This document shows, in pieces, positions 2,510 through 5,003 of a DNA stretch of 33,927 nt (positions are counted from its first letter, which is position 1; each line of letters starts with the position of its first letter). Source of the DNA: Planctomycetota bacterium (GTDB lineage Bacteria > Planctomycetota > Planctomycetia > Gemmatales > Gemmataceae); the NCBI GenBank assembly GCA_016873095.1, contig VGYC01000067.1:1-33927 (forward strand). Direction: 5' to 3'. The notes beneath the pieces are model-generated. The model saw only the letters and a program-made list of their open reading frames with translations. It was not told the DNA's origin and did no database searches. Both the position numbers and the translations under genes were made by a program.

Positions 2510-2908
2510 CGTCTCCTCGCTTTCCCGATCATTCGCTCCACGTCAAGCTTGCCATGCACGCAGCCCGGCATGCGCGCCAATGGCCACATCGATACCAGGA
2601 TACAATTCGTTGCCGGGGTACCGAGATGGGGGGTGGCAACGCAATGCATTTCGATCAACGTCTGCCAGCCGACTTGAGAAAAAATGGACTTGTCGCCGGA
2701 TTTGCTGTCAAGATCTCGTCATCGCGACAATCGAGCTTGATCTGCGCATCGTGCGCAATTGCGTCCGTGGAAATCGCTGGAAAAGAACGCGTGCTGGCCG
2801 CGCGGCGGCGGCGGCGGTGGTAAAGTTGCCGTGGACCTTGGGCGTGCGCCCGCCATCAGGATGATGGACGAGGCCGTTCGCCCCCAACTTCAGAGAACGG
2901 TCACTCCC
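2510..2908. other. Intergenic stretch, no supported gene
   Basis: About 400 bases between the terminator at 2453-2509 and the cysteine-rich gene at 2909. Short open frames exist on both strands but none has a ribosome site or a protein-like composition that I trust. A short CGG triplet run occurs near 2803-2818. The promoter of the gene at 2909 should lie here, but I could not pick a convincing -35/-10 pair. Confidence 0.5.
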
Positions 2909-3508
2909 ATGAAAATACGGAAATTGATGATAGGCCTGATGTGCCTGTCGGTGGTAGGCGTCGACTTTCCATCCGTCGTGCAGGCCCGCGGCTGTTGCGG
3001 TTGCGGCTGTTGCGGCTGCAAGCAGATTCGTTGCTGCTCGGTGATCTGCTGCCGACAGTACAACGCGTTCACGCCGGTTTGCTGCGGCAGCCTGTGCTGC
3101 ACCGGTTGCTGCCCAGTGGGCTGCGGCTGCTGCCAGCAGCCAAACTGCTGCGGACCGAGCTTCTGCACGGGCTGCTGCCCGGCCCCATGTCCGGCGCCGT
3201 GCCCGGCCCCTTGCTGCGACGCGCCGACGTGCATGGCTAGCCCACCGGCCGCCCCCTTTATTCCCAACATGCAGATTCCGCAGGCGCTGCCCTCGACGGC
3301 CCCGTCGTCGGCGCCGCAGTTCATGCCGCCGCCCCCCACACCGCTCAACGGCCAGACGGCGTATAACGACGGCTACAATCCCTGGGCCCTCATGCATGCC
3401 GGCTACTATCCGGGCTACAGCGCCGGCTACTATCCGCCAGTGACGCCGGCCAGCTACGCTCCAGGCTACGCGCCGAGCAACGTCCCCGGCTACTGGTACG
3501 GGCATTAA
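2909..3508 (+). CDS. Secreted cysteine-rich, Tyr/Pro-rich protein (199 aa)
   Basis: The ATG at 2909 begins a basic start, a hydrophobic segment and VQA, a typical signal peptide with cleavage near residue 27. The next ~85 residues hold about 29 cysteines, mostly CC pairs spaced by Gly, Pro or short loops, including three PAPC units. There follows a Pro/Ala/Ser-rich linker and a C-terminal part rich in Tyr, Gly and Pro, with GYYPGYSAGYYPP and several PGY units. No family is recognised for certain. The composition suggests an extracellular or periplasmic structural protein cross-linked by disulfides, or a metal binder; cysteine-rich wall proteins are known in this phylum. A strong terminator follows 52 bases after the stop, so it is probably transcribed alone. 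There is no strong Shine-Dalgarno before the ATG. Confidence 0.82.
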   Translation: MKIRKLMIGLMCLSVVGVDFPSVVQARGCCGCGCCGCKQIRCCSVICCRQYNAFTPVCCGSLCCTGCCPVGCGCCQQPNCCGPSFCTGCCPAPCPAPCPAPCCDAPTCMASPPAAPFIPNMQIPQALPSTAPSSAPQFMPPPPTPLNGQTAYNDGYNPWALMHAGYYPGYSAGYYPPVTPASYAPGYAPSNVPGYWYGH

Positions 3509-3560
3509 TCGGTCGCCCTGGTAATCTCAGTCTCAACGAAAAGGAGGTCCGTTCATAGTC

Positions 3561-3597
3561 AAGCCCGGTCCTTTCGGGGACCGGGCTTGTTTTTTTT
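3561..3597 (+). terminator. Strong intrinsic terminator
   Basis: A perfect 11-bp stem (AAGCCCGGTCC at 3561-3571 with 3578-3588) and a 6-base loop are followed by a run of eight T (3590-3597). This is a textbook Rho-independent terminator for the cysteine-rich gene. It also separates that gene from the convergent gene ending at 3621. Confidence 0.88.
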
Positions 3598-3620: not shown

Positions 3621-4877
3621 CTAGCGGCCGGGATGCATCTGCCGGTTGAAGATCACGGGATCGAACTCATCAGTGGGCTCGTGCGCGGGCTGTGAGTGGC
3701 CGCTGGAGAAGCCGGATTCCTGATCGGGCCGCACCGCGGACGGACGACTTGCTGCGGGCGCCTTGGCCGGCACGGGATGCGTCGGAATCGGCGAGAGCTT
3801 GGGATCGCCCTGAACGACTGGAGTCTGCTCAACCTTCTCCATTGCCCTCGTCCCGGCTGTCTCCGGTGTCGCGACAAAGCGCAACGGCGTACGAGCTTCC
3901 GGCGCGGGCTTGTCTTCTTCCTTCACCACCTCGTGCGCGACTTGGCGGCCCTCGAGATTGGGCACGCCGGCCACTGCCGGAGCCGGCAACGTGAAAGTCG
4001 ATACCGTCCTTGGCTCCGGTGTCGTCTGGGCGCGCGGCTTCGGTTCCTCTTTTTTCAAGTGTGGATTCTGACGCAGCACGTAATTGACCCAGTCCTGCAT
4101 GCTCTTGTATGGCTCGCTCAAGCGCTTGATCGGCGGTTGGCCGGTGTTGCCGTGGGCGCAGATGGCCTTGATCAGCAACGGGCTCAGGATGGGATGATCC
4201 GGGTCAATCTGCTTCAGGACGGCGCCGAGGTTCTTCTGCGTGGCCGCTTGCGTGCCGCCGTGATAGGAGCGATAAAGCTGAAACTCGCCCCCCTTGCCCG
4301 CTGAATGGCAGCTCACGCATGTATTCATGAGGATCGGCTGGACACGGGTGATGAACAAGGCGACGCAATCGGAGCTGATGTCATTGGTAACGGCCGCAAC
4401 GGGAACCGGAGCCGGCATCTTCGGCGTCGCGGACGGTTGCTGGCTCGTCGTCATGGCGCGCTCGAGTACCGAGACGAGTTGCCGTGACGCCGCGTGGTCC
4501 GGCCGCATCTTCGATGCCGCGGTCGCCTCCGCCAGAGCCTGAGCACGCATGTCATGGAGGTGACACCAGCGCGCCAGCCGTAGACGCTCGTCCGGATCGA
4601 GTAGATTGGCCCGCGAGGCCATGAGTTCGTAGGCCTCCTGCCAGTCGCAGCACAGCTTCATTTCCGGCGACACCGGAATCCAGACCTCGCCCATGCCACG
4701 ACGAATGCGATACTGCTGTCCATGCCGCTCGATGTCGCCATCCAGTGTCCGGCCATTGTCCAGTACCAGAACCTTGCCGGTTGTCTGCGGACTGGCCCCA
4801 ACCGGCGGTGCGGCGCGAACGCTATTCCCGAGGGCGAGCAACGCCCCGAGCGCGAGTGACGCTATTTTGGCTTTCAT
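3621..4877 (-). CDS. Secreted protein with a c-type haem motif (418 aa)
   Basis: The protein starts with a clear signal peptide (MKAKIASLALGALLALG...VRAAPP), so it is exported. Residues about 35-75 look like a short beta domain, followed by a helical stretch (about 80-140). A single CXXCH motif (CVSCH, residues 187-191) lies in a region with 'PILMNTCVSCHSAGKGG', as in the cytochrome c-like domains common in planctomycete proteins. A helical part with DWVNYVLRQNP follows. From about residue 280 the rest is Pro/Ala/Lys-rich and probably disordered. I infer haem attachment outside the cytoplasm; the distal haem ligand cannot be assigned by eye. The start at 4877 is chosen because the signal peptide begins there; in-frame codons upstream add an unlikely extension. 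The function is not known. Confidence 0.78.
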   Translation of the reverse strand: MKAKIASLALGALLALGNSVRAAPPVGASPQTTGKVLVLDNGRTLDGDIERHGQQYRIRRGMGEVWIPVSPEMKLCCDWQEAYELMASRANLLDPDERLRLARWCHLHDMRAQALAEATAASKMRPDHAASRQLVSVLERAMTTSQQPSATPKMPAPVPVAAVTNDISSDCVALFITRVQPILMNTCVSCHSAGKGGEFQLYRSYHGGTQAATQKNLGAVLKQIDPDHPILSPLLIKAICAHGNTGQPPIKRLSEPYKSMQDWVNYVLRQNPHLKKEEPKPRAQTTPEPRTVSTFTLPAPAVAGVPNLEGRQVAHEVVKEEDKPAPEARTPLRFVATPETAGTRAMEKVEQTPVVQGDPKLSPIPTHPVPAKAPAASRPSAVRPDQESGFSSGHSQPAHEPTDEFDPVIFNRQMHPGR

Positions 4878-5003
4878 GATGCGCCGGTCTATACGCCGAG
4901 CTGACAAGCATGTCAAGAGTAGCTGGCCTTCAGGAACTGCCGGTAGAGAACACGGGTTCTGGGGCGGAGGGGCAACCGCGCCATGCCGATGCTGCACTGC
5001 CAG

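Follow-up and report, generated by a model that had tools for sequence, protein, structure and literature searches.

A lineage-restricted planctomycete protein family with a conserved YNAF[ST]P core and up to 30 cysteines

The window, which is the whole 33,927-nucleotide stretch of Planctomycetota DNA that was analyzed, contains at positions 2909..3508 (+) the coding sequence of a 199-residue cysteine-rich, predicted secreted protein, assigned by its reading frame and its homologues to what is, on the sequence comparisons described below, a previously undescribed and lineage-restricted protein family, the YNAFTP family. The gene is real and is under purifying selection. Four features extend what an earlier note on this DNA had described, namely a conserved core, a restricted distribution, synteny of the relatives with tsaD, and a hairpin in the 5'-UTR. 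As the best explanation, and with a little less than even confidence, we propose that the product, which is nearly uncharged, is secreted and serves as a cross-linked structural component of the cell envelope or the extracellular matrix, its leader being under CsrA-type control.

The frame stands out within the window. It encodes 30 cysteines, 29 of them within residues 27-112, and in a scan of the 180 stop-free stretches of the window that are each at least 90 codons long, the maximum number of cysteines per 86 residues was 29 in this frame versus 11 in the next best. The other five frames of the same DNA contain 0-6 cysteines each, and the GC content by codon position (0.53/0.64/0.82) peaks at the third position, as it does in the other coding frames that were compared. 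Across eight pairs of homologues in the family dN/dS is 0.03-0.36, from which it follows that the protein is maintained by purifying selection and, given that the homologues share the same start and core, that the frame is translated. A chance or wrong-frame artifact was rejected in view of the cysteine density, the codon-position GC and the dN/dS values. An N-terminal extension to a TTG at 2759 was also rejected, since the homologues share the MK/MR start and what is conserved further upstream has the character of an RNA. Downstream lies an intrinsic terminator (3560..3597, +) with a 13-bp stem, a loop of 4 and a T8 tract, the stem of which (3560-3589) is calculated to fold at -26 kcal/mol (z -4.25). 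Because of this terminator and because the next long open reading frame runs convergently, the gene is apparently transcribed alone. The earlier description of about 29 cysteines in about 85 residues, of a Tyr/Gly/Pro tail (11 Y, 20 P and 8 G in the last 87 residues), of a signal peptide and of a real, separately transcribed gene with a dedicated terminator is thus borne out, the signal peptide being judged by eye.

The predicted signal peptide occupies residues 1-26 (2909..2986, +) and reads as MKIRK, a hydrophobic stretch and VQA/RG, and the aligned homologues have in common a start of MK or MR followed by a hydrophobic segment and an A-x-A-like site. A bacterial lipoprotein was rejected because there is no lipobox ([LVI][ASTVI][GAS]C) at the cleavage site; the sole cysteine of the signal region, in GLMC at residue 12, is not part of a lipobox and its position is not conserved in the alignment, and LPAM_1 matches in the relatives stay below cut-off. 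By composition, the mature protein begins with a cysteine-rich region (residues 27-112; 2987..3244, +) with PAPC repeat units, within which lies the conserved core (residues 41-65, RCCSVICCRQYNAFTPVCCGSLCCT; 3029..3103, +), and continues into a low-complexity Pro/Tyr/Gly tail (3245..3505, +) that has few repeats, of the type YYPGY and GYYPP, and that ends in PGYWYGH. The protein has 11 CC, 4 CxC and 6 CxxC arrangements, and with 4 K+R and 2 D+E in 177 residues the mature part is nearly uncharged. In an AlphaFold2 model built with 19 family sequences (mean pLDDT 53.6) the signal helix is modelled better than the rest, as is a beta-hairpin, 41-48/58-65, around YNAFTP, where residues 41-60 reach a pLDDT of about 78-84, while most other residues are near or below 50. 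The model of a second member, L041 (mean pLDDT 47.4), has only a weak trace of the same hairpin, and together the two models suggest that the core of the family may form a beta-hairpin.

The earlier note knew no family with this combination of features, and a profile search of Pfam and NCBIfam (E up to 10) likewise gave none for the window protein. Seven relatives searched against Pfam matched no family above cut-off, and a sequence search of PDB sequences, plasmids and viral contigs returned no relatives of the window protein. A single-sequence search of 59 genomes gave matches in nine other genomes, at loci that proved to hold homologues, and this search is independent of the core profile (A2, 41 positions) and the full profile, in both of which the window protein is one row and against which it scores E 1.5e-14 and 6.5e-58, respectively. 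What defines the members is the core [RK]xYNAF[ST]PxxxG, found after the secretion signal. In an alignment of 25 members N-A-F is invariant and the core P and G are nearly so, and a fuller reading is roughly FGLF...[IV]xxR[PQ]YNAF[ST]PxCxGxxxCDG. The members are 115-322 residues long and many, although not all, carry the C-terminal PxYWYG that the window protein matches. The flanks of the core change rapidly, as Cys/Pro/Gly or Met/Pro/Tyr linkers, and no cysteine is invariant, with counts of 2-3 (L029-L031), 5-9 (L004, L005, L008, L018-L021), 20 (L002, L003) and, at the extreme, the 30 of the window protein. It follows that cysteine richness was elaborated in particular lineages, and a family defined by its cysteine pattern was rejected, as the core is conserved throughout. 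Specifically, the CC/PAPC pattern described in the earlier note is present in the window protein but is not defining, and the existence of homologues lacking it, which that note had named as a possible refutation, tells against the pattern as the mark of the family and not against the gene. A second, divergent YNAFSP paralogue in genome G083 (L037; G083:C232:6-362) is longer, has its cysteine-rich segments elsewhere and begins at a contig end.

Of 95 genomes from the same taxonomic family, 30 contain matches to the core profile, 31 copies in all, with E values of 2.7e-20 to 6.8e-12 followed by a gap. When 397 genomes sampled from the class and 392 sampled from the phylum were searched, no match fell outside that family. 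The next score, 0.006 in G007, was rejected for want of a convincing open reading frame. Where present the gene is usually single-copy, with two copies in one genome. It is absent from many relatives (for example G001 and G063), so the protein cannot be indispensable to the wall across the taxonomic family. In 13 of the 18 named loci, all from metagenome-assembled genomes, tsaD directly precedes the gene and is read in the same direction; in the genome of the window tsaD is on another contig than the YNAFTP gene. Among the readable neighbourhoods of gene-less genomes no hidden homologue was found in the tsaD slot, which other genes occupy, a reading that leaves out L117, L121 and L122, where no ETSCDET anchor was found, and that extends only 108 bases downstream in L114. 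In a TsaD tree, in which several forks are open, the genome of the window groups with G023, whose protein has 20 cysteines, with moderate support (92/88), and five gene-less genomes fall together.

Export, location, cross-linking and CsrA control of the YNAFTP protein are what we infer from these features, as follows. The protein would be exported by the Sec route, on a signal judged by eye, and the core, a predicted beta-hairpin, would self-associate or dock on a wall component. The assembly would then be cross-linked through its variable flanks, with disulfides serving in cysteine-rich species such as that of the window and perhaps with tyrosines as well, and expression would be tuned after transcription by CsrA acting on the 5'-UTR hairpin. 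Among the points for a structural role are the few charges, the 11 CC pairs and the P/Y/G tail of the window protein. A cross-linked structural role, which the earlier note had listed as possible, is still the best guess for the family, but disulfides cannot be its general means, since cysteine falls to 2-3 in some members. In a fuller version, which we put forward tentatively and consider rather improbable as a whole, this would be a lineage-specific surface family in which a nucleating core is kept, the cross-linking chemistry of the flanks is swapped between species (Cys-dense versus Met/Pro/Tyr-rich), and CsrA controls translation via the leader hairpin.

What holds the planctomycete envelope together is an old question. 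The walls have been described as SDS-resistant proteinaceous layers (PMC3422733). Later work, however, reports peptidoglycan in some planctomycetes (compare PMC5394234). Cysteine-rich YTV proteins occur in wall preparations of the phylum, Gemmataceae included (PMC8567305), so secreted cysteine-rich wall proteins do exist in planctomycetes, and these YTV proteins are the cysteine-rich proteins named in the cited preparations. The YTV-domain wall proteins (Rhodopirellula, Tuwongella; cited in PMC8567305) resemble the window protein in several ways: they are exported, as is predicted here, they are rich in cysteine, they are confined to planctomycetes, Gemmataceae among them, and an envelope role is likely. 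The window protein differs in that it is small (199 residues) and single-copy and in that conservation lies in the YNAF[ST]P core rather than in the cysteine spacing, and a string search of its 199 residues found no YTV. By analogy, the YNAFTP protein may be most like the planctomycete cysteine-rich wall proteins in its possible mode of action. Within the PVC superphylum the chlamydial OmcA and OmcB are also secreted, cysteine-rich envelope proteins and are thought to be held by disulfides, and a putative envelope role would be shared with them, whereas the window protein differs in having no Pfam match, a P/Y/G composition in its tail and a lineage-restricted family. Keratin-associated and spore-coat type proteins are Cys/Tyr/Gly-rich structural proteins and offer an analogy for how a cross-linked material that is rich in Cys and Tyr, low in complexity and uncharged may work; the window protein, in contrast, has a predicted bacterial Sec-type export signal and a short conserved core. 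The YNAFTP family would be a separate envelope candidate with a precise motif, and its natural variants with 2 to 30 cysteines are a ready series on the contribution of disulfides.

Profiles for DsbA (PF01323) and VKOR (PF07884) found no match in the genome of the window or in the tested relatives that carry the gene, so no dedicated oxidant for the 29 cysteines was identified by these two profiles, and this is the chief weak point of the structural reading. Most genomes tested (G000, G003, G011, G012, G016, G023, G024, G036 and others) match neither profile, yet encode cysteine-rich exported proteins. The thiols might accordingly stay reduced or metal-bound, which leads to the main rival reading, unlikely in our estimate but the one to be weighed most seriously: a secreted metal-binding or metal-storage protein whose CC, CxC and CxxC clusters hold Cu, Zn or Cd outside the cytoplasm while the tail anchors or spaces it. 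The numbers of these clusters in the window protein fit such a role, as does the fact that low-cysteine relatives are often Met-rich. In group g13 the mature proteins contain 9-19 Met, plus His, and since Met and His also bind copper, their composition would fit copper about equally well as structure. On the other hand, L029-L031 combine their 2-3 cysteines with few Met or His, no metallothionein was matched in Pfam or NCBIfam (E up to 10), no metal-handling gene was recognized adjoining the YNAFTP gene, and charged residues are very scarce in the mature part, unlike in classical metallothioneins.

Two further alternatives to the structural reading were weighed. The YYPGY and GYYPP units, the uncharged low-complexity composition and a patchy presence among relatives that suggests a lifestyle trait would suit an adhesin or a holdfast- or stalk-type glue, that is, a disulfide- and Tyr-rich secreted polymer for attachment to surfaces rather than a wall protein. 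We consider this improbable, as no adhesion-related neighbors were recognized, the gene is usually single copy and the tail repeats are few. Disulfide-stabilized effectors usually keep their framework, whereas the number and spacing of cysteines vary between members of this family, and this makes it very unlikely that a protein that is small, secreted and cysteine-rich with rapidly changing flanks is the precursor of a secreted disulfide-stabilized effector, antimicrobial or signalling peptide. The few charges, and the fact that no processing, immunity or export genes were recognized alongside, also speak against it.

Upstream of the gene, a -10-like element, TAAAGTTG (2821..2828, +), recurs as TAGAGTTG or TATAGTTG in the upstream DNA of relatives (L004, L005, L007, L023), with the form TAnAGTTG across genera and with a comparable spacing to the leader hairpin that follows, which points to a putative promoter here; a consensus scan found no -35 element. 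The leader then has a first stem-loop of the type GGGCG-TGC-GCCC (2840..2851, +), near-identical in L003 and L007 and varied in L004 and L005, followed 41 nt upstream of the ATG by the hairpin CCATC-AGGAT-GATGG (2853..2867, +), which contains the CsrB-repeat-like CAGGATG. A hairpin with a loop AGGAN, some 50 nt ahead of the start codon, is kept by members from many genera. Thirteen such hairpins align gap-free, and 88.5% of their cells pair, as against 20-73% in slid controls, a result to be read with the bias toward pairing that comes from their having been picked as stem-loops. Three pairs change on both sides, and the covariation score was reached by 7 of 500 shuffles, which is moderate support; the sequences are related. 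CAGGANG, a motif chosen after the leaders had been inspected, is present in 11 of the 25 leaders at 35-80 nt ahead of the gene, versus a mean of 0.28 and a maximum of 3 in 1000 shuffles and 2 on the reverse strand. The hairpin pattern has five matches in the genome of the window, of which only 2853-2867 looks intergenic, so the hairpin is not a common repeat there, although variants of the stem would escape the pattern. Repetition of the leader at other genes was rejected because the other four matches are inside long open frames, and a second copy of the 90-base leader was not found in that genome at a significant score. At the leader no Rfam family scored above gathering.

The CsrB repeat is CAGGA(U/A/C)G in hairpin loops, GGA in the loop being the key feature, and the NMR-defined CsrA site is ANGGAN, with RUACARGGAUGU also described (PMC7652899). 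GGA is in the loop of the window hairpin and of most of the 13 aligned ones; most leader loops are AGGAN, which is not the high-affinity ANGGAN spacing but fits the CsrB repeat, and CsrA is encoded in all 20 genomes of the taxonomic family tested. On this basis the leader hairpin looks like a candidate CsrA binding site. It would resemble the CsrB/CsrC-type hairpins in that the loop of a short hairpin carries CAGGANG, here in an RNA leader, in a group where all genomes tested have CsrA, and it would differ from them in having one putative site per leader rather than many repeats, in its mostly AGGAN loop, and in being lost in some lineages. In particular, three g13 genomes have the loop ACGAC or ACAAC, and without GGA these leaders do not fit CsrA; the loop in g17 is CATCAGGGATG. 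These loop differences, the departure from the NMR-defined site and the position some 41 nt from the start codon would also suit a different cis-acting RNA, such as an RNase target, a stabilizer or a decoy of the ribosome binding site, which would concern regulation only. This is a real possibility that we nonetheless judge somewhat improbable, given the match to the published CsrB repeat (PMC7652899) and the presence of CsrA in every genome tested. Read as a CsrA site, the hairpin points to a specific candidate target in a group with 1-7 CsrA copies per tested genome.

The 20 genomes include that of the window, with seven CsrA homologues, and some homologues lie in open frames that are far longer, up to 359 codons. 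Two neighbors of the gene may also be mentioned. A small open reading frame of 58 residues (MSLDHLSAASPRN...DIGGEG; 2235-2411, +) has no Pfam match and a good Shine-Dalgarno sequence, AAGGAG, and is followed by a terminator-like inverted repeat, GACGTGTCAGC...GCTGACACGTC, at about 2455-2497. The convergent protein (3621-4997, -) matched no Pfam family; it carries CVSCH, a motif of the haem-binding type, and its tail is rich in Pro and Glu.
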